This document shows positions 781 to 34,250 of a stretch of 35,595 nt of DNA, in pieces; within the stretch, counting starts at the first letter, position 1, and each line of letters opens with the position of its first letter. Made by a program: the position numbers and the translations under genes. The notes under the pieces are model-generated. The model ran no database searches. It was not told the origin of the DNA and worked only from the letters and a program-made list of their open reading frames with translations. The stretch spans positions 1 through 35,595 of the forward strand of contig NZ_NHSQ01000176.1 of assembly GCF_016653465.1 (NCBI RefSeq). Direction: 5' to 3'. The stretch is from Thiocystis minor (GTDB taxonomy: Bacteria; Pseudomonadota; Gammaproteobacteria; Chromatiales; Chromatiaceae).

Positions 781-1542
781 ATGTCCAAAGTTTTCATTAC
801 CTTGCAAGCGAAAGGCGGCGTGGGAAAAAGCTACGTCTCGTCGATTCTGGCGCAGTATTTCCAAGAAGCGAATTTCCCAGTGCGCTGTCTGGATACTGAC
901 ACCACCAATCCGACACTGCTGCGCTATAAGTCACTGAATTGTCAGTATCTCAAGCTCTCGGAAGCGCATGTGATCAACCCCCGGGCGTTCGATGAACTGG
1001 TAGAGATTGCCTCTGGGGCAACGCCGGAGATGCACATCATCGTCGATGTCGGCAGCAATGGCTTTCAATCATTCATGGCCTATGCAGTCGAAAACGACTT
1101 GTTCTCCGTGCTGGAGAGTTTGGACGTCCAGGTCGTCATTAATTCGGTGATCGCCGGTGGTCCGGATGCCGATGAAACCCTGAGCAGCACAAAGGCGGTC
1201 CTAGAACACACACGGGTTCCGACCTTGATTTGGCTAAACGCCCATCTGGGGGCTTTGGAATTCAGGCGCCGTCCGATTCAAGAGCTGGAGCTGTTTGATA
1301 CCTTCGATCACCGTATTCTTGGCTGGGTGATACTGCAAAAATATGCGTCCACCACCTTTGGACAGGATGTCGAGCACATGCTGAAAGAACGCTGGACCTT
1401 CGACGATGCGATCGAACAGCTCAAATTGATGCCGCGCATCCGCCTTCAGATGGCCAAGCGCGATTTGTGGTCACAGTTGGATCAGGTCTTTTTCCCACTT
1501 CCCGAGCGCCCGAACACTGAGGAAACCGCGTTGCGCGTTTGA
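781..1542 (+). CDS. traL: TraL-like ParA/MinD-type ATPase of conjugal transfer
   Basis: 253-residue P-loop ATPase, homologous in layout to IncP TraL (about 240 residues), whose role in conjugation is still poorly defined. The deviant Walker A motif KGGVGKS lies at residues 11-17, directly after the first beta strand (VFITLQA), as in ParA/MinD/TraL proteins. The following LDTDTTNPT segment (switch I region) and IIVDVGSNG (Walker B region) fit the same fold. The C-terminal part (TFGQDVEHMLKERWTFDDAI) matches the conserved TraL tail. I chose the ATG at 781 rather than an in-frame start at 733, because the 733 version adds 16 unrelated residues before the first strand. It follows traK on the same strand, and a small ORF begins 3 bp after its stop. 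Confidence 0.78.
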   Translation: MSKVFITLQAKGGVGKSYVSSILAQYFQEANFPVRCLDTDTTNPTLLRYKSLNCQYLKLSEAHVINPRAFDELVEIASGATPEMHIIVDVGSNGFQSFMAYAVENDLFSVLESLDVQVVINSVIAGGPDADETLSSTKAVLEHTRVPTLIWLNAHLGALEFRRRPIQELELFDTFDHRILGWVILQKYASTTFGQDVEHMLKERWTFDDAIEQLKLMPRIRLQMAKRDLWSQLDQVFFPLPERPNTEETALRV

Positions 1543-1545
1543 GCC

Positions 1546-1728
1546 ATGCCGCAGAGACGTGTTCGGCTTCCGCGCACCGATTTAGCCCATCAGTCGCATC
1601 TTGCCGGACACGACACCCAGGATCTTGATCTTGATCTTGATCTTGATCTTGATCTTGATGATTTAGACAACGTCGACGTCGATCAGGACATCATGCAAGC
1701 CAAGCAGGCATCTGAATTATTTAACTGA
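1546..1728 (+). CDS. Small Asp-rich protein with in-frame hexanucleotide repeat
   Basis: 60-residue ORF starting 3 bp after the traL stop and probably translated with it. The middle is a run of Asp-Leu pairs encoded by six perfect tandem GATCTT units (1621-1656), followed by an acidic DDLDNVDVDQD tail. It occupies the position of traM in IncP plasmids but shows no similarity that I recognise. Because the repeat unit is six bases, slippage would change length without breaking the frame. Its last 12 bases overlap the convergent 3' end of the SNF2 helicase gene. That overlap marks the junction between transfer genes and defence island, so the ORF may be a truncated remnant. No function can be assigned. 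Confidence 0.45.
   Translation: MPQRRVRLPRTDLAHQSHLAGHDTQDLDLDLDLDLDLDDLDNVDVDQDIMQAKQASELFN
1621..1656 (+). repeat. Six perfect GATCTT tandem repeats (cluster of GATC sites)
   Basis: GATCTT is repeated six times without error and continues into GATGAT. Every unit contains the Dam methylation site GATC, giving six sites at 6-bp spacing. Within the small ORF it encodes alternating Asp and Leu. Confidence 0.95.
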
Positions 1729-4425
1729 CGACTCGGGCCAGAGCAATCCCAAAGGCTGATGTTCTGGATATTTGAATGGGAGTCCCAGTGCTGGCAGGGA
1801 TTGTCGCAATCGCTCAATGCCGATGACGAATGTTTGCTCAAGGAGGCTTCGGTCTACCGCGATGGAAAGCGGAGGAGCCTTGGTGCGTACCTTGGTCTGG
1901 TTAAGCATCAGGAGTAGTTTGTCGTCCGTCAGGATAGATGCGGTGGTGCCATCTTTTGGAATCAGGATTCCGAACACCCGACTCCGAACGGTGCCGGACG
2001 ATGCGGTCACGCGATCGAACACTTTGGCAATCACCATTGGATGCTCCAGTCCATCAATCATGGCCAATACGGCTTCCTGCTCCAATGCCTGTGCGATAGC
2101 GTGGTCGAACGCCGCATGACCGACGCCGATGATCTGGATCTCCGATCCGCCGGCAGAGCGGACGCGGCTGAAGACGGCGTCTTTGTAATGCCGTCGAACT
2201 GCCGGGGTTGTAAGCCAGGCGTTCGGCGTTTTGAACGATAGACGATCGTCGCTCCAGGTCGGTCGGCGCTGATTCTTGATCAGCATTGCCTCGAAAAAGG
2301 GGCGCAGCTCCGGCAAATCCAGCGCGGGGATCTCCTTGAGTCCTTGGCAATCGAATTTGGCCGCGTTCCCGACCAGGGCCTTGACGGTATCGATAGCGGC
2401 GGAGCCACCGAAGGTCTTGGTCTTATCATCGAACCAGTCGGACAGCTTCTCCCGAGGAACGCTGGCGGCCTGCGAGAACAACTCGGTAAAGAGGCTCTTG
2501 TCGCTCATGCCGAGCACCAATTGGAGCAAATCCTCGGGCTCGTCCATGGCGGAGCCCAGTGCTTGCATGATATGGCCGACTTTGACATTGAGCTTGCTCC
2601 AGATCAGTGCCTCGACGGTTTCTTCGTTGCGCAGCGAGACGACGTCAACGGGGTGCGACTGACCATAGCGATGCAGGCGACCAACACGTTGATGTAAACG
2701 CATGGGATTCCAGGGCAGATCGACATGAATCAGGGTTTGGCAACGGTGCTGAAGATCAATGCCCTCGCCGCCGGCCTCGGTCGATACAAGAAACCGAACT
2801 TCGCCAGCGTTGAAGCGCTCGGCGGCGATCTCGCGTGACAACGCGATGCTTTGACTTTGGCCGCTGACGCCGACCACCATCTCAATGCGCTCGTCACCAT
2901 TGATGAAAGCGACACAACCGTCGCCGTACTGGCGGATCAGCGCGAACATCAACAACGCCTGAGTGGCCTTGTACTCGGTGAAGAACAGAACTTGGCGATC
3001 CGGGAAGTCCGCATGAATGACTTCCAGGATGCGCTCAATCTTGGTTTCTTCCCCAACGGCCTCCGCCGCCTCGACGAGGGTGCGTAAGTGTGGGATCTCG
3101 TTGGCGAGCAAAGTAATGGATGCAGCGGTGTTCTCGACCGCCAGTTCATCGAGCGCTTGCTGCAAGTCCAGCAGATCCGCGTCGTCCTCTGCTGAAACCA
3201 ATGGAGTACTATTGGCCAGACGTGCCTGCTCCTCGACCAAGAGTTGTTGCAGCCGCTCTTTCTCCTGCGTCAGTCGGCCGAGGCGACCTTTGAGCGCCTT
3301 ACGGATCGCGGCAACCGAGCTGGACGCCAGTTTCTGCATCGCGATCAGCACGAGCATGACCTGTTTGCCCTCGTTTTTGGAGAGCGTGGAGGCGTAGGCC
3401 CTGCCACTGGCGATGAAATCGGTCAGGTTCCGATAGAACTCGCGTTCGGTGTCACTATACCGATACGTAATGGGATGCTGCTGAAGGGGTTTGAAAAGCT
3501 TGCGTCCCTGCATATCGATCACGGACTGCTTGTTGTTGCGGATCAGAACTTCGCGCAAATGGGGAATCTGCTCTGCATCGGGGCGATCGGGATCAAAGAG
3601 GTCTGGGCGCAGCAGATGCAGCAATGCCCAGAAATTATAGGGCTTGCCCCGATGCGGGGTGCCGGTAAAGAAGAGCGCGGACTGAATCTTGCCGTGCTCC
3701 ATCAGTTTCTTGATCAGTGCATAACCTAAGGTAGCACCTTGATGTTCGTCGGCGTTGAGATGATGTGCTTCGTCAACGATCAGCAGATCCCAGGGTTCAG
3801 CCGCCAACAACCGGGCGTGACGACCATTATGGTCCTGGCGCAGTGTCGGCAGCGATGCGATGACCTGGCTGGTTCCGTTCCAGTAGTCCGCCTTGGGTGT
3901 GTCCGCCGCAGTCAGATAAGGCGTCAGGCGGATGTCGAACATGCTGCGCAGACGCTGCTGCCATTGCCCCACCAAGGCGGCCGGACAGAGGATGAGAATG
4001 CGTTGGGTCAGTTTTTTGCTGATGAGTGGCCAGAGGATGAGCCCCGCTTCGACGGTTTTACCCAGGCCCACGTCATCGGCGATCAGTTGGCGTGCCGGCC
4101 ACTGCTGTAACACCCGATGACAGACCCAGAGTTGATGAGGCAGCAAGGCGATCTGAGAGCGGGAGAAGACCCCCCACTGGTCGTTAACCGACAGGATGGC
4201 CGCTGCCTGGAAGTAGGTGATCGCGTCGATTGCCGGTGACCAGTCGCCTTGGCAGATGCTCGTGCCGACTTGAGGACCTGGTCTGAGCAGGGATTTCTCG
4301 CATTCCTCGAGTCCTGCATCGAAACGCACGATGACCGTCTCGCCCCGGTCGAGGATGACCGTTCCCCGGCCCAAATCCTCGTGGACAACGACATCATCGG
4401 TCTTGAGCGCAACGGCGGCGTCCAT
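1717..4425 (-). CDS. RapA/HepA-type SNF2 helicase (last gene of the downstream cassette)
   Basis: 902-residue SF2 ATPase of the SNF2 superfamily, expected to translocate on duplex DNA. Residues 10-45 resemble a small beta-barrel like those at the N-terminus of RapA. Walker A is DVGLGKT (118-124), motif Ia is CPAALVGQW and motif II is DEAH (218-221). Motif III is FFTGTPHRG. The second RecA lobe carries FFTEYKATQ, STEAGGEGIDLQ and motif VI (QRVGRLHRYGQ). The ATG at 4425 has AGGAG 7 nt upstream (4433-4437). The stop overlaps the convergent small ORF at 1728 by 12 bp. It lies 39 bp after the 3' half of the sacsin-like gene, so it probably belongs to that operon. It is a different protein from the BREX helicase at 19179. 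DISARM DrmD is related in type, but no other DISARM gene is present. Confidence 0.85.
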   Translation of the reverse strand: MDAAVALKTDDVVVHEDLGRGTVILDRGETVIVRFDAGLEECEKSLLRPGPQVGTSICQGDWSPAIDAITYFQAAAILSVNDQWGVFSRSQIALLPHQLWVCHRVLQQWPARQLIADDVGLGKTVEAGLILWPLISKKLTQRILILCPAALVGQWQQRLRSMFDIRLTPYLTAADTPKADYWNGTSQVIASLPTLRQDHNGRHARLLAAEPWDLLIVDEAHHLNADEHQGATLGYALIKKLMEHGKIQSALFFTGTPHRGKPYNFWALLHLLRPDLFDPDRPDAEQIPHLREVLIRNNKQSVIDMQGRKLFKPLQQHPITYRYSDTEREFYRNLTDFIASGRAYASTLSKNEGKQVMLVLIAMQKLASSSVAAIRKALKGRLGRLTQEKERLQQLLVEEQARLANSTPLVSAEDDADLLDLQQALDELAVENTAASITLLANEIPHLRTLVEAAEAVGEETKIERILEVIHADFPDRQVLFFTEYKATQALLMFALIRQYGDGCVAFINGDERIEMVVGVSGQSQSIALSREIAAERFNAGEVRFLVSTEAGGEGIDLQHRCQTLIHVDLPWNPMRLHQRVGRLHRYGQSHPVDVVSLRNEETVEALIWSKLNVKVGHIMQALGSAMDEPEDLLQLVLGMSDKSLFTELFSQAASVPREKLSDWFDDKTKTFGGSAAIDTVKALVGNAAKFDCQGLKEIPALDLPELRPFFEAMLIKNQRRPTWSDDRLSFKTPNAWLTTPAVRRHYKDAVFSRVRSAGGSEIQIIGVGHAAFDHAIAQALEQEAVLAMIDGLEHPMVIAKVFDRVTASSGTVRSRVFGILIPKDGTTASILTDDKLLLMLNQTKVRTKAPPLSIAVDRSLLEQTFVIGIERLRQSLPALGLPFKYPEHQPLGLLWPESSVK

Positions 4426-4464
4426 GGTCAGGCTCCTATCTGGATCAACATCGATATCAGGGAA

Positions 4465-7194
4465 TTACGATGCATAAACGGTGCAGCTGCTTTTCACTTG
4501 CGAGTCGTAAGCCATCAGCTGAAGCGGAATGTCATAGGCCCCATCGAAGCGGGCGTCCTCCGGTTGTTCCAAGTGCTCGACAAGGATTGCGTGGATTTCT
4601 TTGGATAGACCGATGTCAGCCCCAGTGCCTTCGAATTGTTCGTAACCCCACTGCGCGAGAAGAACACGTACTTTTTTGGTCGGTACATAGGCGCAGGCAT
4701 GTGGAACCTTCGCGCCATCGACCACTTTGAGTCGGAGCAATTCGCGGACGACGAAACAAGCGCCGATGCCCAGCGTCTTGTGAAATGGCGGTGCCGAGAT
4801 GCCTCCTCCCCCAAGCTTTGAAGCTGCGCGCGGTTTCAAGACGTTGTCCTGTGCGAGCCGGCAATCGCCATCCGTCCATCCCCAAATCGGAAGGCCCAAC
4901 ATGAGCTCGCGGTAGTCGTCGAGATAGCAGGCGAGGCGATAGATGGCCGGGAAGCGTTGCATCCAGTGCTCGTAAGTTTGAGCGTCGGTCTGAGCATCGA
5001 TATAGGCATCCAGGACGCCCATCCACGCCTCGAAATTGTTGCGCGGATCGGCTCTTGCGAAGACCTGCTCCCACCAACCTTGTTGGCGACACATTTCGAG
5101 GAAACCCCGATTTTGATTCCGATGTCCTTGGCCGAAACCCATGGTGTGGAAATGTCCCAGAAGGAACAGGGTCAACCAAGCCGAGCGATCGCCATTACCG
5201 TCGTCATCGGATCGCAGCGCATCCACTGGCGCGACTCCTCCTGGATAGATGTGCTGCTCATACTCCTTGATGTAAACAGCGCCATGTCGTTGCCAAAAAT
5301 CTCTCAACTTCAAGAGGGTTCTCGCAACATCGACGGGGCGATGCGATTCTTGCTGATCGCTGTCGTGCTCTTGCTCCGACACAAACCGATCTTGACTTTC
5401 AGTGCTCTTAAACTGAACCAGGACTTGTAAAATTTGCTCGCGTGGCCAGTTCTGGAAGTAGGGTGACTCTTGTCTCAGATCCGAGAGCCAGGAGCTGTCA
5501 AATGCCATGGTTCGTAGATCCGAAATCACGCGTGTGGCTAGCTCTCCGTCACGCAAGTACACCAACGCTGCGGTTCTCCGTTCCTCGTTATCCTTCAGTT
5601 CGCGTATCCAGCGCGCCAACTGCCGAGTGTCAGCCCTGAACCCGCTTGGCCCCCGACAGCGCCTCAGCATGTTTCGGCCGGCCGCATCATAGTCAGTGTT
5701 GAGTTTGTGCCGGTCGGGCGCGAAGGCCCAACGCATCCGCTCTTCTGAATCGCGGTTGGATGGATCGGCCATCAGCAATTCCGCCGCCGGGGCAAAACAG
5801 CCCGTCACGTCCTGGAACATTGCGCCGTTGAACAGCTTCTCCGTGTCTTCAAGATCTTTTCGCTGGCCCTTGTTCAGGTCATCCAGTTTCAGAGAGTCGA
5901 AAATGGCGTCCCAGATACGCGCCGGCTCCGGATTGAGGCGCACCTGTTGGCCGTGATCCATGAGCTTGGATACCCAATCGGCGAGCCGGCTCGATTTCCA
6001 CTGCGCCCGTGCAGTAGCGTATGGAGGATGCGCGAGAGTCGCCCATTCATGGATTTCGGCGGATACCGTTTCTCGTGGAGCAATCGCGTCGGCGAAGTGG
6101 CTCCAGCCGAAGAGTTGCTCCAACACGCTCGGAATGGACAAGGCGTCTCGTAACACCAGCCGAACATCGCTGACCCGTATCATAGCACGATGCGTGGTTG
6201 GCAAGCCGTTCGGAAGCAGCGAGCGACTCCAGGCGAGCTCTCCGAGCCCAACCTGAGCAGTACATTGCACAAGTGATCGCACCTTGCTTGGCTCTCGCTT
6301 CTGGATTCCACCCAGTAGGGATCGCCACAGGCTGTACCAAAGATCGTAGGGGGTCACTCCCTCGTTCAAGCCGATCGCGTGGCGAACCGTTTCCCAGTCT
6401 TGGTCGGCGGCGAGCCGCAAGTCTTCGAGGGCATTTTTCAAGCCGCGCCCGAGTGCTTCGGCGACGGCGTGGTTGTGCTCCTCGCGATCAGCCAGACTGG
6501 TTCGTGCCGCGTTGACATCGAAGCGCCCGTTGAGTGCGACGCCAAGCGCCGCGTCCTCCGAGGTCGGAGCCAGAACCCAGAGCGAAGGAATGGTCTCCGG
6601 CAGCGATTTCACGCCTGATCCATCCAGCCCAAAGAGGATCGCGCCGTCGCCAAGGCCGATGCGCATGGCCTGGATTCGCGTCATGACACTCATATCTTTC
6701 GGATCCGGGACCAATAAGCTCCCAATGCCGAAAGCTGGGGCCTGCTCCAAACTGCTGGGGCACCAGGTGAAGCTGGTGCCGCCAAGATCGATTTGTCGGA
6801 TCGACTTGGCGAAGCAGCACAAGACACCAGCCATCTTGTGGAATCGGTCGAGCAAGGGAGAGATAGAGCCGGGATCCAAGCTGAGTCGAATGCCTGTGCC
6901 CGCCCCGCCGCCCGCCGGCGCATGCTCGCGGAGCAGTCGCCGAAGATCGCGATCGTCCTCGAGCTGCATGGGTAGCATTCCCCCGAGGATTCGCAGACTC
7001 AGTCGGCTGCTGACGATCTGAGGCTCCTGACAGGCGAGAAAAACGCTCTTGAACCCCAACCCAAACTTGCCGGTGGCTGGAGGCTCCTTATTGGACGCGT
7101 TGACGATGAGCATCTTCTCGAGATCGCGATGATAGTCGCGGTCACGGCCAGGAAAGGGATCACCTGCCGCGTTCAGCGGGCGACCCCAGTGCAT
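4465..7194 (-). CDS. 3' half of the split giant sacsin-like GHKL ATPase
   Basis: 909 codons are open from ATG 7194. The in-frame coding sequence really continues upstream to 7269 (25 more codons, no start) until it meets the MITE. The segment opens in the middle of a GHKL/Hsp90-type ATP-binding domain. MHWGRPL corresponds to the D-x-G-x-G region, and GKFGLGFKSVF (residues 42-52) is the G2 lid motif. The essential N-box helix is missing here and lies instead at the end of the upstream gene (FELFQNADDA). The rest is a long region without recognised domains. No stop interrupts the 909 codons, so either the insertion is recent or the fragment is still made. GAGAAGGA lies about a dozen bases before ATG 7194 and could allow translation. 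On its own this fragment should not bind ATP. Confidence 0.75.
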   Translation of the reverse strand: MHWGRPLNAAGDPFPGRDRDYHRDLEKMLIVNASNKEPPATGKFGLGFKSVFLACQEPQIVSSRLSLRILGGMLPMQLEDDRDLRRLLREHAPAGGGAGTGIRLSLDPGSISPLLDRFHKMAGVLCCFAKSIRQIDLGGTSFTWCPSSLEQAPAFGIGSLLVPDPKDMSVMTRIQAMRIGLGDGAILFGLDGSGVKSLPETIPSLWVLAPTSEDAALGVALNGRFDVNAARTSLADREEHNHAVAEALGRGLKNALEDLRLAADQDWETVRHAIGLNEGVTPYDLWYSLWRSLLGGIQKREPSKVRSLVQCTAQVGLGELAWSRSLLPNGLPTTHRAMIRVSDVRLVLRDALSIPSVLEQLFGWSHFADAIAPRETVSAEIHEWATLAHPPYATARAQWKSSRLADWVSKLMDHGQQVRLNPEPARIWDAIFDSLKLDDLNKGQRKDLEDTEKLFNGAMFQDVTGCFAPAAELLMADPSNRDSEERMRWAFAPDRHKLNTDYDAAGRNMLRRCRGPSGFRADTRQLARWIRELKDNEERRTAALVYLRDGELATRVISDLRTMAFDSSWLSDLRQESPYFQNWPREQILQVLVQFKSTESQDRFVSEQEHDSDQQESHRPVDVARTLLKLRDFWQRHGAVYIKEYEQHIYPGGVAPVDALRSDDDGNGDRSAWLTLFLLGHFHTMGFGQGHRNQNRGFLEMCRQQGWWEQVFARADPRNNFEAWMGVLDAYIDAQTDAQTYEHWMQRFPAIYRLACYLDDYRELMLGLPIWGWTDGDCRLAQDNVLKPRAASKLGGGGISAPPFHKTLGIGACFVVRELLRLKVVDGAKVPHACAYVPTKKVRVLLAQWGYEQFEGTGADIGLSKEIHAILVEHLEQPEDARFDGAYDIPLQLMAYDSQVKSSCTVYAS

Positions 7195-7267
7195 GAACGT
7201 CAGCGCATCCTTCTCGATCGCGACGACGAAGCGAGACGGGTCCGGCTGAGTATCGGAGAAGCTGCCT

Positions 7268-7271
7268 TTAG
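7268..7271. repeat. Target-site duplication TTAG, left copy
   Basis: TTAG directly precedes the left inverted repeat of the MITE-like element. The identical TTAG follows the right end at 7501-7504. A 4-bp duplication fitting YTAR is what I recall for IS5-subgroup transposases. Confidence 0.7.
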
Positions 7272-7500
7272 TTCTACTTTGTTAACTTTGACTGTCGCAT
7301 AAATTAATGAATTTTAAGTTATTTTTTATTAGGCGCAATAAATCTTCATTTACTATGCCCCTATTGAAGATAGATGTTGGCGGTTTATGGGTGATTATAG
7401 GCGCTCAACGCGCCACTAGAACCCTATTGTTTATGTGTATTTTTGTTTATTATCATAAAATTTAAACACTTAAAGATTTTTTGAAGGTAACAAAGTAGAA
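7272..7500. mobile_element. 229-bp AT-rich MITE-like element interrupting the sacsin-like gene
   Basis: The ends are perfect 13-bp inverted repeats: TTCTACTTTGTTA at 7272-7284 and TAACAAAGTAGAA at 7488-7500, with partial pairing continuing to about 20 bp. TTAG is duplicated on both sides. The inside is AT-rich (19 of 60 bases are G or C at 7321-7380) and encodes no transposase, so it would be moved in trans. It contains a small GC hairpin, GGCGC-TCAAC-GCGCC, at about 7400-7414. On the minus strand there is a perfect TATAAT at 7394-7399 pointing toward the 3' half of the interrupted gene, although no good -35 box is visible. Removing 7272-7504 rejoins the flanking reading frames exactly. Confidence 0.85.
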
Positions 7501-10500
7501 TTAGCCTTTTGCGTAAAGCGCAGGATCTCCAACTGTTGGTAAACCGCATCGTCTGCGTTCTGAAACAGCTCGAATGGGATGCTCTCGCGCTTGTACTGGA
7601 ATTCCTCGATCTTGCCGCGCACGCCCTCCAGCAAGGCATTACGTGCCGCTTCGTCACGCTCGATCAACTGTTGGATCTGTCTTAGAGCGTCCTGGCGTTC
7701 CTGCTCGAACTGCGTGGCGCGATCATGACCGCGATATTCGACGACCTTGGCTCGGGCCTGGTCGAAAGCCTTGAACGCGCTCATCAACCCTGGGTGACGG
7801 CTAGGCTTCAGTTGTGTCGCGAGGATCGGGAGGCTTTCCAGAATCAGGCTGCGTGCGACATGAATCGCGATCTGGTCCGAACTCTCCACCTCTGGCCACA
7901 GTGTAGCAAGATCGCCAAGCCACTGATCCGACCATTGCTCCGCGACCAACCGGATCGATTGTCGCAGCATGGCCGCGAGTGCTTCTGGAGAGTGCTGGCT
8001 AGCCTCCACCGGTGCAAGCTGGATCAGAATGCGATCGAGATCGTTGTCGCCACGAACTGTGACGAAACCCTTTGCGCTGGAGCCACGCTTGACCCGCAGT
8101 AGATCGCCGATGATCGAGGATACCGCGACTTCGTTACTCTTTACCTTGACCGCTAAAAAACTGTAACAGCCCATCGCCTCCTCGGGGCTTTTCCAGTAAA
8201 GATCCGCCCAGGTTTTTGTCTGGCCGGGCGTATCGGGTCGCGATTTCCATGGCAGCTTTGCCAGAAGCCAATCCCTGAGACTGATTTGATTACCTTTGTA
8301 TTTCTCGACAAGGTGTTTGACTTCTGGCGTGGTCCCGCAGACAAAGACGAAAGCACCAATCAGGGCATCTGGAATTTTGTCGCGCCAAGTATCAAAGTAA
8401 TCCTCGAGCAGCGTTGCGAATGCCGCGCCTTCTACGGTCGGTGAAGCCGGGGATGTTGCATCCGATTTAGCTGATAGCGCATTGGCCGGTACCACCAAGT
8501 CCCGCAGGATGCGATAGTGATCCTCATGGAGTACGAAGCGCCGCTCGATATCTTCCGCTTTGGCGCAGAGCTCGTTGGCGTGTCGCCAGTCACCGCCGCT
8601 GTCCATGAACTCTAACGCCCCGAGTTTCTCCTCCGCGCCAGGCAACGCGGCGAAGCGTTGGAGATAGAGGTTGAACGCGGCGCGACGGGGCGGATTCGGT
8701 TTTCCTTGTCGCCGAATCCAGCGCAGCACCCGCAGAACGATCTCCAATTCGTCGTCTAGCTCACTTGCCATCTCCGGATAGACGTAGCTCACGACATCCT
8801 CCGGGTGGTGCGCCTGGGTAAGGCTTAACAACAACGCCCACCCCTTGGCGGGCTCAAGGTTGCGAGGCATCTCAGCGAGCACGGGTAATGCTTGCAGCAG
8901 ATCTGTTGGCTCATCCTCCAGCGCGCCAAGGTGGTAGTCGGGCAATTCGCCGATCAATAATCCAAGCGTCTTGAGGGCGTCGTCACCTTGGGCCAAAAGA
9001 CCCAGATCACGGACCAGGCTAAATCCAGGGTGATCCAGGATGCTCTGTGGCAGGAGATCGACGAAGCTATAGGCGCCATCTTGGTGTTGCGTCGCCAGAT
9101 CGCGGATCAGGCCGGATGGGTCCTCGCAGTCGATGATGTCAGACGGTGTGAACGCCGCGCCGGCGAGGTATGGAACCCATCTGGCTGTTTTCAAAGCCTG
9201 TTTGAGATCGACGTCCAGTGTCCTGTCCAGATCGCGTACATCGTCGAGAATCATTTCGACAAACCGCGCAGGTTGCGCGGCTGACAACAGCAGATCCAGT
9301 CGTTCTCGCGCATCGAATGGTGGTGTGATCAGTCGCTGCTGATACCGGCGCAAGTCATCATTGTGACTGCGGCGAATGATGCGCAGCTGATCAGCGAAGT
9401 CGACGGGTGCGGGGCGCCCCGTATCCAGATAGATGCGCTCCCTAAGCAGGTCACAGCGCCGTCCGTCCGTACATTCGTGTAACGGCAGCATGCGCCAGAC
9501 GACTTCATCGGTGGCCGCATGAGTGAGGATCTCGATGCATTCGTGGGACTCGTAGGCGCTTGCATCGATTCGAGCAAGTCCTTCTTGCTTGAGCGTCTTG
9601 ATGGCGTCGAGTAGGTCTTTCGCACGAATGCGCCTGACACCGAGTGCCTGGCGGACCGGATCCGTGACATGCTGAGCGAGGTCAGGATCGATCAGATTCC
9701 AGCCGGTATTCAACTGACTCCAGAGGCGCTCCCAAGCCGTGCCCTCTTCCGCGTCCCGAAACCAGAGCGTTGTTTGCAGATCGCTCCAGTGACCGTCTCC
9801 CCCGTGTAGGAGAAACCGAAACCCGCGTTTGGCCCGTTCGTCGTTGCCGGGGTCGGACAATTGGCGTATCAGAGACTTCCTTTCAATCGGTTCTCGCAAC
9901 GTATGAACGTGGGAGCCGAGCGCATGCAGTACACCCTTGGCGTCGCAGCTCATGATCTCCTTGTTGTCGAAATCCAGGAGCGCCAGGATCTTTTGTTCGA
10001 GAACAAGAATCCGACCACTGGCCAGCGCCTTCTGCAGCGGTTTAGCCAGTGCGCGTCCTTGGTCGTCGCTGACTTGCCCGCGCCTGAACAAGAGCGATGC
10101 CTGACGCGCCTTTTCGATCTCGGCCAGTGTGATCGCCCGAATTTGGTCCCCATCGCCCTGGCCATCGTAGAAGACCGGGATGAGTCGCCGATTCCTCAAG
10201 GCGCGCATGAGCGAGGCTGATGCACTCGAGTCACCGTCGATTCGGCTGGCCAGGTCGTAGATCAGGTTCAGGACAGCCGCGAATTCTCCGTGCGACGACG
10301 CTTCCTCGATCCAATCGCCGACGATTTCCAGAAGCTTCTCGGCATCGTGATACGAAAGCTTTGCCTCATCCTCCAGTTTGTCCGGACAGAGCTCGGATGG
10401 CAGCACCAATAGGGCCACGCTGCACGTCAGTAACCGCTTACGCAGTGCTGGCGGAACGCTCTCAGACAGTCGGAGCTGGATGGCGTGCGGCAAGTACCCG

Positions 10501-12392
10501 GTGAGGCGTTTGATCTGCTTCTTGTTCGACCGGATGCCGTCAAGACCGATCTGCGAGAATCCCTCTCGAACGAGCGCCACAACCTGCTGCTGGAGCGATC
10601 TCTCGTGCAACAGACCATCCAGTGAGAACAACGCCACGGTATCGACGAGGTAGCCTAGCTCATCGGGACTCTTCAGAATCTCTGCCGCCTTGACATGGCT
10701 GAACAAACCAAGCGCTTGCTCTAAGTCGGGGGCGCTAAGGCCGCGCGGCGTCAGATGTTGAGCATCGGCCGCGACGAACGTGTAGGTACCTTCCAGCTCC
10801 GACATTCTTGGAAAGACACGCCAAGGTAGAGCCGGATCTGGTTTTGAAGGTGTCGGGGTCGGCAAAGGCAGCAATGGCCGCTCGCTGCTCACGAGCGACC
10901 AAGACGGTCCGCTTTGTTGCAGCTCGAGCACCCATTGCGCTGACTCAGTGATGACTTCGCGGAACTTGGTCCAGAGCTGACTGCGTGCGAAGGCTTTGGC
11001 CAAGAGGCGTCCCGTTTCCACGTGACGTTCCGGATCAAGCGTCGTCACGTAGTCATGCAGAACCGGCAATAGCAGGGGCAGCGTGCCCTGGGTCGCCAAA
11101 CACTGATTCCAGGCAATCCGGACCGCATCGACGGAGTCGGCAGGTTTTTCTGTCTCGCCTTTGCCAAGGACATCGAACCCATGAATGCCCCGACGTCCAG
11201 GGTCGACAAAGAAATAGCCATGCAGCGTACAGCTGAAATCTTGATCGCCTCCGCAGAAGAGCGTCTCGGAGACGAGATCGTCCTCGAGTGGCAGGAAGAC
11301 CGCCCAACGGATCGTCAGATGACCTCGTGATGCGACCGATGCAGGGGACGTGGTGAAGACGATCGTTGCATGTGGCTCGGCCTTCTCGCGCTCGGGCTCT
11401 GGCTCTGGATTACCGAGATCGTCGGTACGGTGGGTCTCCGGCCATTGGGGGCCGTGGTGTAAGGCTTTTAGCGCATCGAGCCAGTGATGGGTCTCGCGGC
11501 CATTGAAATGAGATTGAGCCTTCGTATCCCCCTTGGCTTGGATGTCGATGAGGCCCTTTAGGCTGTGCTCTCCCGAAGCTGTCGGACCGTGCAAGCGTTG
11601 AGCCGGATCCGTGATCTCGATATGGAAAGGTTGATAGCGATCCATGTTGATTGGCTGAAAGCTGACCTGCTCCACATGGCGCAACAACGGAAGCACGTCG
11701 GCAACCTGAATCGGCAGCCGTGGGTCTTGAAAGAATGACAGGGAGTCGTCTCCGTCACCTGGGAACTCCTGAACGATAACTCCGGTGACTTTGTCGCCTT
11801 CCCGCCGATGCACTTCCCGCCGCAAGGGTAGCCAGAGCACGAAGGACTGCTCTGATTGGGGGGTGGGAAGCCCCTTGATAATCGTCGCGAGCGCCTGACG
11901 CATTGCGTGCGCGTCTTCGGAGGACAATCGCTCCCAGCTTGGATGGATGGGCGCAAATTCCTCGCGCAAGCTCTCAGGAACACTCCAGGGATTGACAATG
12001 CGCGCAATCGGCCCGCGGTCGGCGATATGACCGAGGAAGAAGAAGGCTTCACAGAAATGGAAGACGCTCTTCATCCCCAGGCCGAACTTGCCAATGGCCG
12101 CTCGATCCGCAACCTTGTTGCTCAGGCCGTAGCTGCGAATGCCGCGGTCGTGCTTCGTCTCGAAACGGCCATTGTTGACGATGCACAGTGCGTCACCTTG
12201 GAGCAGTGGGTGTCGCGCCTCATTGAGCCCTGGAATCAGCGCGAAGACCACGTGCGTGGCCTCCGCATCATCGGCGTTTTGGATCAGCTCCTTGAGAACT
12301 GGAAATCCAGGTTTGTATCGATCTCCGAGATCGTTCCGTAACCGCTGAACCACTTCGAGCGGATTCTGGATGAAACCAGAATATTCTCCCAT
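7470..12392 (-). CDS. Giant sacsin-like GHKL ATPase, 5' portion (truncated by the MITE)
   Basis: 1640 residues from ATG 12392. The first module is an Hsp90-type ATPase like those of sacsin. Its N-box is KELIQNADDA (Glu35, Asn39), its G1 region is IVNNGRF (71-77) and its G2 motif is GKFGLGMKSVF (101-111). A long region with no recognised catalytic domain follows. Near the end a second N-box appears, FELFQNADDA (Glu1608, Asn1612). Native sequence ends at Ala1630, and the last ten residues and the stop come from the MITE. Without the insertion the protein would have about 2,564 residues and two GHKL modules. I prefer ATG 12392 to ATG 12467 because AGGAG lies 6 nt upstream and the MGEYSGFIQNP start directly precedes the conserved domain. 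Hsp90-like modules suggest ATP-driven clamp closure; the role in defence is inferred from context. Confidence 0.8.
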   Translation of the reverse strand: MGEYSGFIQNPLEVVQRLRNDLGDRYKPGFPVLKELIQNADDAEATHVVFALIPGLNEARHPLLQGDALCIVNNGRFETKHDRGIRSYGLSNKVADRAAIGKFGLGMKSVFHFCEAFFFLGHIADRGPIARIVNPWSVPESLREEFAPIHPSWERLSSEDAHAMRQALATIIKGLPTPQSEQSFVLWLPLRREVHRREGDKVTGVIVQEFPGDGDDSLSFFQDPRLPIQVADVLPLLRHVEQVSFQPINMDRYQPFHIEITDPAQRLHGPTASGEHSLKGLIDIQAKGDTKAQSHFNGRETHHWLDALKALHHGPQWPETHRTDDLGNPEPEPEREKAEPHATIVFTTSPASVASRGHLTIRWAVFLPLEDDLVSETLFCGGDQDFSCTLHGYFFVDPGRRGIHGFDVLGKGETEKPADSVDAVRIAWNQCLATQGTLPLLLPVLHDYVTTLDPERHVETGRLLAKAFARSQLWTKFREVITESAQWVLELQQSGPSWSLVSSERPLLPLPTPTPSKPDPALPWRVFPRMSELEGTYTFVAADAQHLTPRGLSAPDLEQALGLFSHVKAAEILKSPDELGYLVDTVALFSLDGLLHERSLQQQVVALVREGFSQIGLDGIRSNKKQIKRLTGYLPHAIQLRLSESVPPALRKRLLTCSVALLVLPSELCPDKLEDEAKLSYHDAEKLLEIVGDWIEEASSHGEFAAVLNLIYDLASRIDGDSSASASLMRALRNRRLIPVFYDGQGDGDQIRAITLAEIEKARQASLLFRRGQVSDDQGRALAKPLQKALASGRILVLEQKILALLDFDNKEIMSCDAKGVLHALGSHVHTLREPIERKSLIRQLSDPGNDERAKRGFRFLLHGGDGHWSDLQTTLWFRDAEEGTAWERLWSQLNTGWNLIDPDLAQHVTDPVRQALGVRRIRAKDLLDAIKTLKQEGLARIDASAYESHECIEILTHAATDEVVWRMLPLHECTDGRRCDLLRERIYLDTGRPAPVDFADQLRIIRRSHNDDLRRYQQRLITPPFDARERLDLLLSAAQPARFVEMILDDVRDLDRTLDVDLKQALKTARWVPYLAGAAFTPSDIIDCEDPSGLIRDLATQHQDGAYSFVDLLPQSILDHPGFSLVRDLGLLAQGDDALKTLGLLIGELPDYHLGALEDEPTDLLQALPVLAEMPRNLEPAKGWALLLSLTQAHHPEDVVSYVYPEMASELDDELEIVLRVLRWIRRQGKPNPPRRAAFNLYLQRFAALPGAEEKLGALEFMDSGGDWRHANELCAKAEDIERRFVLHEDHYRILRDLVVPANALSAKSDATSPASPTVEGAAFATLLEDYFDTWRDKIPDALIGAFVFVCGTTPEVKHLVEKYKGNQISLRDWLLAKLPWKSRPDTPGQTKTWADLYWKSPEEAMGCYSFLAVKVKSNEVAVSSIIGDLLRVKRGSSAKGFVTVRGDNDLDRILIQLAPVEASQHSPEALAAMLRQSIRLVAEQWSDQWLGDLATLWPEVESSDQIAIHVARSLILESLPILATQLKPSRHPGLMSAFKAFDQARAKVVEYRGHDRATQFEQERQDALRQIQQLIERDEAARNALLEGVRGKIEEFQYKRESIPFELFQNADDAVYQQLEILRFTQKANSTLLPSKNL
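7501..7504. repeat. Target-site duplication TTAG, right copy
   Basis: Identical to 7268-7271 and directly adjacent to the right inverted repeat of the element. The codon that spans this copy (Ala) is unchanged if the element and one copy are removed. Confidence 0.7.
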
Positions 12393-12521
12393 CCTCTTCT
12401 CCTTGAATTTTCCCTGCTCATACTCCGGACGACGACTGCCAGATCCGCTGTAGACTCGATCATCCATCGTTACAGGCGCAGCTGGTCAGCCGTCGAGATC
12501 AATCGGTGCTTTAATCTAAAT

Positions 12522-15500
12522 TCAAGAGCAAAGTTTTTCCTCAATGAGGTCATGGATACTCTTGGAGTCGATACTTCCGTTCGCTTCGTCCTGGGTGATG
12601 ATGAGTGTCCCGTTCTCTCCATCACCTTCATCACGGGGCCGAATCCCATGGTCTCTGTACCAAGCCAGCTTCTCTTCCCAGCGCCTGCGATAGCTCGGCA
12701 CATGGAGCATGCCGCAATGCTCCCAGTAGAACGTCTCACCTGACTCCATGTCCTCAATCGTAAAGTCGGGATATTTCGTTTCACCATTGATTTTCAGAGG
12801 GCGCTCATAACGATAGTCGCAGCCTTTGGCGTGCAATGCATTCGCGATGATCACCTCGGACTTCGATCGCACCATTTCTCCACGCATCGTCCGGTGAATC
12901 AGGTTTTCCTCGAAGAATCGGCCCTCGATATCGATCGGTGATGGTGGGACGAAAAGATTGGTAAGGCGCCGGGCGGTCTCCGAGTGATCATCAGTAGAGA
13001 ATTTTCGCAAATCGGTGCGTTGGCCCTGGTGTAGGATGATGACGCGGTTCTTCTGGCGGGTGAGCGCAGTGTAAAGCAGCTCGCGTGAGAGCAGTCGGCA
13101 CGGGTTCGGAAGAACAAGAATGACCGTGCCGAACTCGCTACCCTGGGACTTGTGGACCGTTAGGGCGTAGGCGAGCTCGAGAATGGCGCTGCCTTCTTCG
13201 CCAAAGTCTTTTCCCGTGAAGCTGTACTTGAAGCCAGGCTGAGACGAGAGTTCCACCTCGAGCTTCCACCGCAGATCGGGTTGACCTCTTCTCCAATAGT
13301 AGCCAACGACCATGCCGATCTCACCGTTAGCGATGTAAGCGTCGTCCTTGTCTGGATAGACCTTGCGGTGGCGGTTCCAAGGCAACTTTGGATTGGTATT
13401 CACAAGGTTGATTACCTTGTCACCATAAACAATTTGCTCGCTTCCCATTGGCTTAGGGTACTTACGTTTCCATCCTTCCTGACGGCAAGCATGAATTGTT
13501 TCCTGTCGGAACTGTCTATGTATCAAGCGATTCAGTTCGGGAACTCCATGCGCACCTGAACGCACCGGGGAAAGGATCTGCCAGCCCTCTGCAATCTCTG
13601 CGGCGCCTTTCTGTTCGCCTCTGTGAGGATTGAAGAACCGAATTTCATTCCAGGGTGTTCCCCCGATCGTCTGATCGAATCCGGCAATATCCTCAGGGTT
13701 CGCCAGTGCGGCAATCTCCTCATCGTCTTCGTTTGTTCGCTTGAGCTCCTCTACCAGAACATCGATCAGTCGAGAGCGAATCTCGTCCGGGGTATCCCAC
13801 TGCACAAAGCGCACATGCCGGCTCTGGCCAGTGCGGATCACCTTGTCGAATACATCGTCCTCGCCAGGCGCGATCGGCGATCCGCTGAACAATTCGGCGA
13901 GCTGGAGATCTTCGCGATCTTGACCACCCTGGCGGCACCGGACTGTCAGCTCGGTGTAGCCAGACCCAACACGCGGGAATCGCTCCGTCACGCCGTCGGG
14001 CGAGAGCCGGTTGATAATGTCGACGAAGGGGCGACCGGCACCGATCGGCGGAAGCTGGCGTGGATCACCAACCAGGATTAGGCGGTGCAGACCCTTGAAT
14101 GCCTGGATGAGTGCGCCGAGCATCTCCTCCGTGAGCATCGAAGCCTCATCGATGATGACCGTGCACGCATCCGCATCGGGCGCTTTCTGGTCCGACAAGT
14201 GGTATCGCCCTGTCGTCGCGTCATAACGGTGCGGCGTCAAGAACTGAGCGATGGTCTTGCCCTTGAGATTGAGTGCCTGAGTCGATTGCTCGAGGCGCAC
14301 ACGCGCCTTTCCGGTCGGTGCGAGCAGTAGGATGCCTCCCTCTTCGATCTTGGGGTGCGAGCAGAGCACAGACAGCAGTGTGGTTTTGCCTGTGCCTGCC
14401 GGGCCAACCAGAACCGACAGCCGCGATTCGGCAAGCTCCTTTAGAGCCGCGCTCTTCTCTACCCGCGCACTTTCCTCGATCTCGTAATCATCATCTGTTT
14501 TGGCAGGCATATCGGGCAGACGTTGATCAAGCCGGGCCCTCCAGTCTGCATCGACGATATGGCGCTTGGCCTTGACACTGATACGCTTCTCCGCCGCATC
14601 GCGGATCGTCTTGCCTATCTCCGCGAGCCGGCCGAGTTGGAGGGCAGGGGCACTGTTCGCCATGGCCGTCGTGACGATGACATCGTCGAAGCTGTCTCGG
14701 GCCACTTCCATCAAGTCGCCGTCGACTTTGCAGCCGGGATCGAGCGTTAGATCACGGATTCCGAGGACGACCTGGGACTGAGGCAAGAGTGTGCTGCCGG
14801 CTGCTGCCGCGTCTTCGAGCACCTTTACCGTCAATGCCCGCACGCGACGCGCATCCGTTCCGGAATCCAATACCGTGGGCGCTGGTAATGGATGCTTCGT
14901 GCGAATCACTGCATCGGGGAAGACCCCGCGATCGACCGTCCAAACACTAACAGGGTCATGAGTGAGGCGTGTCAGCTCGTAGAGGAGATAGGGGTTCGCA
15001 AGAATTGCTTGGTCCGTCGTGTCGATGCCAGCTTTGGCGCGCTCCTCCTGGACGTAGAGCCTTTTTCCCTGTTCGCCCGTGATCTCGAAGCGGCTGATGA
15101 GCTTCAGCAGTGCCCGGCGATCCTCGGGCAGACGTGACCACTTGGCCGTCAGTGTCTTATCGATGCTCTTCGCGAGAGGTGTCGGTAAGATCTTGTCAGG
15201 ATGAGTGAACATTTGGTCGACAAGGGGCCACGGGTCCGCGTTGTCGCCCGCCTTTTCGGCGAGTGCGCGAGCGGCAAAGGTGCCCAAGTCCAGACCAAAG
15301 GCCGTCAGCGCGGCGCCCAGCCCTGGACAGGGTCCGCGCGCCTTCCACAATTCCCCGAGCCGCGCGTCGATCCACTTGAGGCACTGTTCCCATGGGCCTT
15401 CCAGAGTACCTTTGGCTTTGCGCAGCGACTCCGCGCAGGCCAGCAAGGAAGCGATAGCCCCGTCGTGGCTCACCAACTGCGATGCATAGGAGAACTCAAG

Positions 15501-16313
15501 CAATCGGTCTGCTGGAGAGAGTGCGGCCAGCTCTGCTGCATCGAATTCAGAATCCTCGGCTGCCTTGGCAATCGCCGCGTGGTAGGGCAGGATGAAGCCG
15601 TCCTTGAAGTCGGGGCGGATCGAATGCTGGATCATCCGTTCCCAAACCATGGATCGCAGCTTGCCCGAAAGCGCCTTCGTCGAATAGGTATACTCCTGCA
15701 GTTCGCCGACATGCTGAACACGACCTATGCCAATTAGAATGCGGCTACTGGCCGAGTCCTCTACAAAGGGAGCTTGCTTGGCATAGAAGAAACAGAGTGA
15801 TCGCTCTGGCTTGATGTGCCCGGCAAAGCCATCGAGGAGTGCCGTTTGGTTGCGGTGATCTTGCACCCACGGTGTCTCGAAGCCCAGGTCGGGCTCACGC
15901 TCTCCATGCACGTCAAGGTTGTGCTCCTGCGTATTGATTCCCATCGTCTCCCGCAGCATCCATTCGAACGGCATGACGGCAGCTGAATAGGCTGGATAGC
16001 GCAACGGTGTTGGCTTGAAGTGGCCATGGCTCGTTTCTGGCCCTCGGTTGTATGGATGGTTTACCGTTCGCTCGTATTCGAACGGGGCCATGAACCCAAC
16101 CCGTTCCGCGACACAGACCGGCCACTGTGATGGCTCAAGTTCCTCCAGACTCTTACCTGATACCGCCTGCTCGGCTGTGTCATTGCGACTTTCGGCAATG
16201 CGCTTGAGCTTGAGACAGGCATCATTCAGATGTGGATTGGTACAGACTCGGCCGTCCCAGCCGGTGTCATGCCAAGGTACGCGGATGGAGATGTGTTTGA
16301 GCGGGTAGTCCAT
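12522..16313 (-). CDS. Large RecD-like SF1 helicase with C-terminal PD-(D/E)XK-like nuclease
   Basis: 1263 residues. The first 600 or so are unrecognised, beginning with a conserved-looking PWHDTGWDG stretch. A RecD/UvrD-type helicase follows. Walker A is GPAGTGKTT (about 635-645), Walker B is IIDEAS (about 721), motif III is VGDPRQLPP, and the UvrD C-terminal signature is ALTVHKSQGSEFG (about 1050) with YTALTRQKNRVII. The last 120 residues look like a restriction-type nuclease: Glu1153 (KSEV), Asp1183 (YPDFTI) and Glu1198 (YWEHCG). The usual catalytic Lys is replaced by His/Cys. A longer frame from GTG 16346 exists, but ATG 16313 has GAGAGGA upstream (spacing slightly long) and starts at the conserved segment. 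It follows the brxA-position gene by 83 bp and precedes the giant GHKL gene, probably in one transcript. It may unwind and degrade invading DNA. Confidence 0.8.
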   Translation of the reverse strand: MDYPLKHISIRVPWHDTGWDGRVCTNPHLNDACLKLKRIAESRNDTAEQAVSGKSLEELEPSQWPVCVAERVGFMAPFEYERTVNHPYNRGPETSHGHFKPTPLRYPAYSAAVMPFEWMLRETMGINTQEHNLDVHGEREPDLGFETPWVQDHRNQTALLDGFAGHIKPERSLCFFYAKQAPFVEDSASSRILIGIGRVQHVGELQEYTYSTKALSGKLRSMVWERMIQHSIRPDFKDGFILPYHAAIAKAAEDSEFDAAELAALSPADRLLEFSYASQLVSHDGAIASLLACAESLRKAKGTLEGPWEQCLKWIDARLGELWKARGPCPGLGAALTAFGLDLGTFAARALAEKAGDNADPWPLVDQMFTHPDKILPTPLAKSIDKTLTAKWSRLPEDRRALLKLISRFEITGEQGKRLYVQEERAKAGIDTTDQAILANPYLLYELTRLTHDPVSVWTVDRGVFPDAVIRTKHPLPAPTVLDSGTDARRVRALTVKVLEDAAAAGSTLLPQSQVVLGIRDLTLDPGCKVDGDLMEVARDSFDDVIVTTAMANSAPALQLGRLAEIGKTIRDAAEKRISVKAKRHIVDADWRARLDQRLPDMPAKTDDDYEIEESARVEKSAALKELAESRLSVLVGPAGTGKTTLLSVLCSHPKIEEGGILLLAPTGKARVRLEQSTQALNLKGKTIAQFLTPHRYDATTGRYHLSDQKAPDADACTVIIDEASMLTEEMLGALIQAFKGLHRLILVGDPRQLPPIGAGRPFVDIINRLSPDGVTERFPRVGSGYTELTVRCRQGGQDREDLQLAELFSGSPIAPGEDDVFDKVIRTGQSRHVRFVQWDTPDEIRSRLIDVLVEELKRTNEDDEEIAALANPEDIAGFDQTIGGTPWNEIRFFNPHRGEQKGAAEIAEGWQILSPVRSGAHGVPELNRLIHRQFRQETIHACRQEGWKRKYPKPMGSEQIVYGDKVINLVNTNPKLPWNRHRKVYPDKDDAYIANGEIGMVVGYYWRRGQPDLRWKLEVELSSQPGFKYSFTGKDFGEEGSAILELAYALTVHKSQGSEFGTVILVLPNPCRLLSRELLYTALTRQKNRVIILHQGQRTDLRKFSTDDHSETARRLTNLFVPPSPIDIEGRFFEENLIHRTMRGEMVRSKSEVIIANALHAKGCDYRYERPLKINGETKYPDFTIEDMESGETFYWEHCGMLHVPSYRRRWEEKLAWYRDHGIRPRDEGDGENGTLIITQDEANGSIDSKSIHDLIEEKLCS

Positions 16314-16396
16314 GGTCGTTGTTATTCCTCTCGGAGATCGCTTCACGGACCGGTAGGATCAATTGCTGACCGGTCCCATCCAGTCTGGGCTGTGGC

Positions 16397-17155
16397 TTAA
16401 TCGCAGCCCATGCGTTTGCATTCGGTATCGAGCTCCACCATGTCGGTGTCGAGCCCCTCACGATACAGCCGAAACTGCGTCGCGGCTCGGACCTGGTCCA
16501 CAGTCAGCGCAAGCTCGAAGGGGAAGAGTCCTGGATGAGTCAGCAACTGATCTAGCGGCAGGCACGCTTGCTCGGCATCGACGAGCAGCGCTTCGATGAG
16601 AATCAGCCCAATGTCCGAATCGATCCCCCTTGGGCCGGTCGGCCCGGCAAAGTACCCCGGTGTTGGCGTGTCCTGTAGGACATCCCACTGGACCATCGAG
16701 CGAACGATGCGCTGGACGGCGCGGAGCAGTGTGGAGCGCGCACCCCAGTGATCGGCGAGCCGACGTGACAGCACGGCCAGGGTGAAGCGGCCTTGCAGCT
16801 TCAAGAGCCGTCCCGCCGCCGAGGCGATGTCGGAAAAGATCGGATAGGTTCCGACCATCATCGCCCAGTGCAGGGCGAGCCGTTCCTCGGCTGTGCAGGT
16901 GGCGAGCCGCTCAATCGCACGCTGGCGCAGGTCGAGAGCGGACGGCGGCACCGCGCCCCAGATGTGGTTCAACACCGTGACCGTCTTCCCGCGCGCCGTG
17001 TTTGACGCGTCACCGCTGACGACGCCATCAAGGAAGGTCCAGAGAGATTCCCTCAGCGCATCGGGCGGCGCGCCGGCCGCCGCTTGGGCCGCGGCCGCAT
17101 CGAGCCAGTCGAGATCGATCCGGCGGTCGAAACCGATGGTCGCGCGCCGGCTCAT
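16397..17155 (-). CDS. brxA: BrxA-position protein of type 3 BREX
   Basis: 252-residue protein whose ATG overlaps the pglZ stop as ATGA, so it is translationally coupled to pglZ. Type 3 BREX loci end with brxA after pglZ, and the position is exactly right. The sequence is mostly helical, and the segment LHWAMMVGTYPIFSDIASAAGRL followed by RAVQRIVRSMVQW looks like a helical bundle leading into a winged-helix region. I cannot align it to the DUF1819/NusB-like BrxA of type 1 BREX from memory, so the symbol rests mainly on gene order. BrxA proteins bind DNA and are needed for full BREX activity in studied systems. No catalytic motif is visible. Confidence 0.5.
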   Translation of the reverse strand: MSRRATIGFDRRIDLDWLDAAAAQAAAGAPPDALRESLWTFLDGVVSGDASNTARGKTVTVLNHIWGAVPPSALDLRQRAIERLATCTAEERLALHWAMMVGTYPIFSDIASAAGRLLKLQGRFTLAVLSRRLADHWGARSTLLRAVQRIVRSMVQWDVLQDTPTPGYFAGPTGPRGIDSDIGLILIEALLVDAEQACLPLDQLLTHPGLFPFELALTVDQVRAATQFRLYREGLDTDMVELDTECKRMGCD

Positions 17156-22007: not shown

Positions 22008-22041
22008 GTCAATCAATTAGGATGTTAGCAAGGATTCTCCC

Positions 22042-22680: not shown

Positions 22681-22687
22681 ATTCAAT

Positions 22688-23974: not shown

Positions 23975-24034
23975 TTGTCAACGCTCCTGCTTAATGGTGC
24001 TGTGGCATATGCGCACAACATAAAAAAATTCTAT

Positions 24035-34237: not shown

Positions 34238-34250
34238 GCTGACTCCGGGG

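Follow-up and report, generated by a model that had tools for sequence, protein, structure and literature searches.

A giant sacsin-like ATPase and a RapA-class SNF2 protein as a candidate two-gene defence module beside a type III BREX operon in Thiocystis minor

Behind a BREX (bacteriophage exclusion) operon of Thiocystis minor lie three very large genes, encoding a helicase-nuclease, a giant sacsin-like ATPase and a SNF2 helicase, and the question raised by this locus is whether the three constitute one defence system or belong together only in part. The stretch analysed here (the window) is one whole contig (C176, NZ_NHSQ01000176.1; 35,595 bases) of a genome of 5.3 Mb in 198 contigs. A preliminary description, made from the letters of the window, took the three genes for a single undescribed anti-phage cassette. 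The reading frames and sizes that it reported were recovered, all on the minus strand behind the BREX operon, and its domain calls were all matched (a RecD2-like helicase with a nuclease motif, the Pfam SACS domain and a SNF2/RapA-type helicase). Its estimate of about 2,564 residues for the intact giant agrees with the 2,563 amino acids of an orthologue that shares about 80% identity with it and belongs to a second genome of the family. The single cassette itself did not survive, as set out below: on comparative sequence evidence, the inherited unit is the pair formed by the giant and the SNF2 gene and not the trio.

Linkage and neighbourhoods of the giant and SNF2 genes

About 85,000 species genomes were scanned with an alignment of four intact giants, by way of two short peptide patterns, which returned at least 80 loci (labelled L below; genomes and contigs are labelled G and C). 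Forty-four of these were assessable, that is, the giant was essentially complete, judged from the scan match or from reading frames, and at least 2.8 kb of sequence lay behind it. The 44 take in giants in two frames (L063, L082, L091) and near-identical pairs of loci (L067/L084, L085/L086), and the 36 left out are partial giants or giants at contig edges, degenerate loci (L072, L077, L111) and distant sacsin-type proteins; the contigs of L043 and L056 are identical to those of L033 and L034. Among the loci listed, the SNF2 gene stands next after the giant, on the same strand, in 43 of the 44, with a spacing of -10 to +78 bp in 41 loci and of about 820 bp in two, in one of which (L056) a PIN-domain gene lies in the gap. 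In the window the giant and the SNF2 gene are 39 bp apart. The trees of the two proteins are also closely correlated (Mantel r 0.94 over 40 loci, the best of 2,000 permutations reaching 0.28), and it is this correlation together with the linkage that identifies the pair as the unit. The same association is seen at the level of the order, where 210 genomes include seven with the SNF2 gene, seven with the giant and six with both (hypergeometric p 4e-10, without correction for relatedness), the unpaired cases being G008, where the SNF2 gene is degenerate, and G154, where the giant is a fragment. Distant sacsin-type loci with sufficient room (L103, L104, L107-L110, L113 and L116) have the SNF2 partner in none of eight cases, and the four of these that were scanned with profiles all encode TmtA, which we take to be the single-gene system Tiamat.

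The helicase-nuclease is a near full-length member of PDC-S68, as judged by a profile match of 1,628 bits (residues 12-1270 on profile positions 1-1217 of 1221). Names in PDC, which we take to denote candidate systems, are given by PADLOC, and we know of no described function for PDC-S68. The gene stands beside the pair in seven loci, the window and six others (L008, L046, L047, L048, L050 and L090), on the upstream side in four of the seven and on the downstream side in the rest, so that the three families do co-occur elsewhere, and in the stretches examined the six others hold no match to the core of the window's BREX. Mapped on the SNF2 tree, PDC-S68 requires seven changes over 42 tips, each a separate gain, although the flanks on which this count is based are limited in length. 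The majority of the PDC-S68 genes sampled lie away from the pair. One inherited trio was therefore rejected, the distances of PDC-S68 and SNF2 proteins giving r = 0.17 against the r = 0.94 of giant and SNF2 (seven loci, no permutation test, with L008 entered as one open reading frame of 664 amino acids and the L050 gene truncated where its contig stops). Of eight plasmid records that hold 80% or more of PDC-S68, one carries the pair. Four genomes of the order encode PDC-S68: two lack the pair (G022, G056), that of the window has the two side by side, and G146 has each of them at the end of a contig. Since PDC-S68 is itself rare (found in one genome of the 369 in the class sample), chance is an unlikely reason for its recurring seven times next to the pair, a judgement made without a formal test and with the caution that defence genes cluster generally.

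The protein combines a RecD2-like superfamily 1 helicase with a C-terminal PD-(D/E)xK-type nuclease motif, RSKSE...PDFT...EHxG (E...PD...E-H-x-G), the key residues of which are kept in 12 to 13 of 13 aligned sequences, window included. Near-invariant H/R/W/H/D/W/C positions at the N terminus (residues 18-78 of a 1,274-amino-acid reading) suggest that this H/W/D/C-rich stretch is a further putative domain. A search of E. coli with the helicase-nuclease gene gave no match; the PDC-S68 profile also matches in Methanocaldococcus jannaschii, and the family or a relative may thus reach the archaea. Genes of UvrD type, of about 700 amino acids, recur beside the pair and beside PDC-S68 (L048, 24797-26881; L044, L090, L101, L122), and the one scanned, that of L048, has a Gp49-like N-terminal domain.

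The defence-island setting proposed in the preliminary description holds for the pair as well, as many of its loci contain other defence genes. Among the neighbours checked, members of named or candidate defence families were found in at least 19 of the 44 loci, or in 15 of 44 once loci holding only PDC-S68 and a UvrD-type gene are set aside. In L046 and L063 the pair is flanked by a type IIG-like methylase on one side and a DruE-like helicase on the other, and behind the helicase comes a UvrD-type gene that the end of the locus truncates; neighbours elsewhere include GajA (L039), Mrr (L052), HmaB and HmaC (L054), a cyclase of CBASS (cyclic-oligonucleotide-based anti-phage signalling system) type (L057) and PDC-S06 (L102).

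The pair is spread, by record titles, across about nine or ten bacterial phyla. Its hosts include Gamma-, Alpha- and Betaproteobacteria, Geobacter, desulfobacteria and Acidobacteria (titles of metagenome-assembled genomes being unverified), and further Cyanobacteria, Verrucomicrobia, Kiritimatiellia, Chloroflexi, Spirochaetes, Neomarinimicrobiota and, on plasmids, Deinococcus. In a plasmid collection the giant occurs in seven records, and four of the six opened carry the pair (two of Deinococcus, one of Trichormus and one of Sphingomonas); the seventh, outside this count, is another Trichormus record with a match of the same span and identity. A search of phages with one intact giant gave no match, and a scan of viral contigs (IMG/VR) returned one locus, L127. 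Here the pair stands in a row (878-19394) with type I restriction genes and PDC-S11 as well as an integrase of phage type, and it is probably an integrative element that carries the pair as cargo.

The two proteins and a possible mode of action

The giants are proteins of about 2,500 residues with two ATPase modules of the sacsin/Hsp90 type (GHKL). In the window the N-terminal piece of the giant matches the Pfam SACS (sacsin) domain with 80.6 bits (E = 2e-22) and carries the motifs ELIQNADDA at residue 60, GKFGLGMKS at 126 and a second N-box, ELFQNADDA, at 1633, and a sequence-profile search of the PDB with the giant returned sacsin as the sole match at E 0.01. AlphaFold2 models were made for the two halves of a Pseudomonas homologue of the giant, leaving out about 400 residues between them, and are confident, with a mean predicted local distance difference test score of 85.5 for the N-terminal and 88.0 for the C-terminal half. 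Foldseek placed sacsin SR1 on top for the N-terminal half, followed by MORC2, Hsp90, GyrB and MutL, and Hsp90 in all 50 matches listed for the C-terminal half; structural resemblance was seen to MORC2, MORC3 and MORC4, proteins that the giants far exceed in size. In both modules the glutamate of the N-box, the glycines of the G-box and a downstream arginine, about 360 residues past the N-box in the first module and about 280 in the second, are kept in at least 95% of 40 giants. In a study of sacsin, an arginine downstream of each ATPase domain is proposed as catalytic (PMC9880540), and by analogy we equate the conserved arginines of the giants with it. Inspection by eye recognised no nuclease motif among the conserved residues of the giants.

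The SNF2 partner has RapA as its best relatives in the PDB, and shares with DrmD, BrxHII and RapA itself the RapA-class SNF2 architecture and helicase motifs. In the window these are the Walker A motif DDVGLGKT at residue 117, DEAHH at 218 and QRVGR at 579, and the helicase motifs are kept in an alignment of 42 family members; here too, no nuclease motif was recognised by eye among the conserved residues. The protein is 31-32% identical to three BrxHII proteins over about 610-640 amino acids and coexists with BrxHII in BREX III loci, and the SNF2 proteins of the pair cluster apart from both DrmD and BrxHII (midpoint-rooted tree, node support printed as 0.60).

Together with the linkage, the co-inheritance and the defence neighbours of the two genes, these features lead us to favour, on balance, the reading that the giant and the SNF2 protein make up a two-protein machine against invaders, a clamp combined with a translocase, for which nucleases are recruited. 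The parts of this reading differ in strength: that the pair acts against invaders we hold with good confidence, the chances that DNA is its target, with a translocase and a double ATP clamp at work, appear evenly balanced, and the same even judgement is given to the supply of cutting by recruited nucleases. The SNF2 protein would travel along DNA, delivering or sensing the state of foreign DNA, and ATP binding would close the two modules of the giant as clamps on DNA or on DNA-bound protein complexes. GyrB, MutL and MORC ATPases close as ATP-driven clamps of this kind. The closed clamp would then stall the invader genome or mark it for destruction. Cutting is probably not done by the pair and would come from recruited neighbours, either PDC-S68 or joined systems (BREX III, ARMADA-like sets, Mrr, or type I and IIG restriction enzymes).

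Several observations weigh against such a machine. One of the 44 assessable loci, L082, is an exception to the pairing, and outside the 44 there are giant fragments with room for the SNF2 gene and yet without it (L071, L095, L098). The Haematobacter plasmid carries a divergent giant without SNF2, and the giant of a Synechocystis plasmid is truncated by insertion sequence elements. The pair is also rare, since in an even sample of 369 genomes across the class the giant or the SNF2 gene was found only in the window's own genome. Many pair loci show no nuclease directly beside the pair, and the count of loci with defence neighbours is made on chosen neighbours without a background control. The TM-scores from Foldseek are low (0.11-0.28 by query length), and the clamp picture therefore rests on domain homology. 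We know of no phage assay of the pair. Lastly, sacsin is best known as a chaperone, and the client of the giant could be protein and not DNA.

This last point leads to the alternative that survives best, although we regard it as unlikely, namely that the pair is a chaperone-type sensor in which the giant binds phage proteins or remodels host complexes such as RNA polymerase, and the SNF2 protein acts on transcription. The prevalence of Hsp90 among the matches listed for the C-terminal half, and its presence among those of the N-terminal half, are consistent with such a role, as is the finding that, among solved structures, the SNF2 protein is closest to RapA, a protein acting on RNA polymerase; two studies report a chaperone role for sacsin (PMC3710099, PMC9880540). 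However, the N-terminal half equally matches the DNA-handling GHKL proteins MORC2, GyrB and MutL, and many pair loci hold DNA-targeting systems.

Other functions and comparison with named systems

The occurrence of the pair on plasmids, and beside an integrase on the IMG/VR contig, could also be taken to mean that it serves DNA maintenance or functions of plasmids and mobile elements, and not defence. This appears improbable, as the distribution is patchy and rare, the neighbourhoods are rich in defence genes and the pair on the IMG/VR contig itself stands with type I restriction genes.

The position of the pair in the window raises the further alternative that BREX type III has the three genes as additional components, or that they mark a subtype of it. 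The preliminary description had reported a complete BREX set next to the three genes, and all six components of type III, by which the type is now specified, were indeed found in the window (BrxF, BrxC, PglXI, BrxHII, PglZ and BrxA). The pair adjoins or sits within BREX III in G181, G183 and L068 as well, and yet its position differs between these loci: it comes after brxA in the window, before brxF in G181 and G183, and between brxHII and pglZ in L068, where IetS and AAA genes accompany it. For the remaining 43 of the 44 scan loci, searches with PglZ, PglX, BrxC, BrxA and BrxF of the window gave no match (E 1e-10; limited flanks; type III queries only), and the plasmid loci gave none to the window's BREX proteins either. 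The pair was on this ground rejected as a constant component of BREX III, and six core components are given for type 3, GHKL being unmentioned, in the part available of PMC12839542. We consider membership in BREX very improbable; the presence of BREX beside the pair is recurrent but facultative. In L068 (Desulfobacterales bacterium HSG16) the pair, the AAA gene and the IetS gene inside BREX III occupy 331-20466, which suggests that operons of this type can harbour smaller defence modules within them. A VWA-domain gene stands ahead of the pair and BREX III in G181 and G183 (L029, 4805-6094; L030, 5221-6510). In the window a two-gene CBASS is nested between brxHII and pglXI, in a region where the GC content falls at 44% (22501-24000).

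The preliminary description had found no named system to fit the three genes. This stands in so far as no system tested matches the trio, while the helicase-nuclease turned out to be already listed by PADLOC as the candidate PDC-S68 and the SNF2 protein received a DrmD label there (PDLC02634, 972 bits over residues 6-897). A variant of DISARM (defence island system associated with restriction-modification) with the SNF2 protein as DrmD is hardly credible, in spite of this label, of a DISARM operon near the pair on the Trichormus plasmid and of a DUF1998 gene and a helicase gene near the truncated giant of the Synechocystis plasmid: DrmA, DrmB or DrmC was the best call for none of the 17 window proteins scanned, both NCBIfam DrmD cut-offs are missed (297 bits for 610, 152 for 950), the true DrmD of the Trichormus plasmid is 28.7% identical to the window protein over 415 amino acids (100 bits), and the two kinds of SNF2 protein cluster apart. 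The core of DISARM is described as the helicase DrmA and DrmB (DUF1998), usually with DrmC (PMC9142583), and membership was rejected on these missing components and cut-offs. The DISARM operon of the Trichormus plasmid includes a separate drmD, and with the pair only 5 kb away both proteins coexist on this plasmid.

Tiamat resembles the giants in that TmtA is a large prokaryotic protein with an N-terminal sacsin-type GHKL ATPase. The giants differ from it in having two GHKL modules, about 2,500 amino acids and a linked SNF2 gene. Four TmtA proteins (1,565-1,857 amino acids) gave near-full-length profile matches of about 340-830 bits in all four cases scanned, whereas the pieces of the window giant and the intact giant of L031 are matched over GHKL domains only, about 80-100 residues of the first and weakly in the second, and membership in Tiamat was rejected. 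The nearest described design is that of restriction operons with MORC-type GHKL and SNF2 genes, in which GHKL genes are linked to SWI2/SNF2 helicases in restriction-like neighbourhoods with varying nucleases (PMC2292703). Compared to these, the GHKL protein of the pair is of sacsin type and double, its partner is RapA-class, and there is no constant methylase or nuclease. A likeness to ARMADA is seen in L046, L063, L051, L058 and L101, where a BrxHII-like helicase, a type IIG/PglX-like methylase, a DruE-like helicase and a UvrD helicase with a RelE-like N terminus were recognised by resemblance and not by the profiles of ARMADA itself. The giant and its partner are not among ArmA-D as described in the available part of PMC12458937, which does not mention 'sacsin', 'HSP90' or 'GHKL', and ARMADA was rejected as a home of the pair, as a DruE-like gene is found neither in the window nor in most of the 44 loci. 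Searches of the open-licence full-text literature, supplements and subscription papers being outside their scope, turned up no paper on the pair. A legend in DefensePredictor (PMC13092281) names a histidine kinase-like ATPase among the domains of predicted systems, and overlap with the pair is possible.

The clamp-translocase reading can be taken further, although at this length it is tentative and we hold it doubtful: the pair could be an unnamed core immune module, a nuclease-free tandem clamp of sacsin/MORC type loaded by a RapA-class translocase, that plugs into varied defence operons and borrows their effectors. If true, this would to our knowledge mark the first use of a double sacsin-type clamp as the basis of an immune system, and the pair could be a prokaryotic relative of eukaryotic sacsin and MORC. 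Confirmation of the pair would add a widespread two-gene core to the defence repertoire, would require correction of the DrmD label given by PADLOC to the SNF2 protein and would present large defence operons as docking places for smaller modules. Sacsin, a human ataxia protein, would gain a tractable bacterial relative with a constant partner. The mechanism of its ATPase is still debated (PMC9880540).

The copy in the window

The features of the window are given in Table 1. The copy of the giant is split by a miniature inverted-repeat transposable element (MITE), and the open frame of its C-terminal piece extends back to the edge of the MITE at 7268. The start of the giant is likely at 12392, as judged from alignment with the starts of its orthologues, which would leave a gap of about 130 bp to the helicase-nuclease gene.

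Table 1. Features of the 35,595-base window, in order of position.
Position	Strand	Feature	Basis
1717-4425	-	RapA-class SNF2 translocase (902 aa), encoded second in the core pair	PADLOC, PDB relatives, motifs
4465-7194	-	C-terminal piece of the giant: remainder of the second GHKL domain and tail	80.5% identity to the intact L029 orthologue
7269-7503	.	235-bp MITE splitting the giant gene	Inverted repeats at its termini, TA at each end, 30% GC
7470-12467	-	N-terminal piece of the giant, from the first GHKL module through the middle region into the beginning of the second GHKL domain	Pfam SACS, motifs
12522-16313	-	Accessory helicase-nuclease PDC-S68, 1,263 aa from ATG	PDC-S68 profile, motifs
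16397-17155	-	BREX type III brxA	Context, outside the pair
17152-19182	-	BREX type III pglZ	Context, outside the pair
19179-22016	-	BREX type III brxHII	Context, outside the pair
22042-23974	-	CBASS cyclase and two-transmembrane (2TM) effector, lying within the BREX operon	Cyclase 668 bits, effector 244 bits
24035-34366	-	BREX type III pglXI, brxC and brxF, with VWA-domain gene	Context
32948-34366	-	VWA-domain gene heading the BREX III stretch	Context

The inverted ends of the MITE are 20 bases long and complementary at 18 of 20 positions (90%). Counting the copy in the window, 24 full-length copies with 99-100% identity are present in this one genome, besides partial copies, and this indicates that the element was active recently, in a recent burst. 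As the giant is split by so recent an element, the copy of the pair in the window is probably inactive. The same genome carries a second, unbroken pair on contig C107, with a giant of 2,515 amino acids, a PIN-domain gene and the SNF2 gene in this order. Damage to the giant is seen elsewhere too, as an in-frame stop in one copy of G183 and as split giants in L008 and L063. PIN-domain genes occur in toxin-antitoxin systems, and one stands between the giant and its SNF2 partner at 13796-14302 in L031 and at 17337-17759 in L056.

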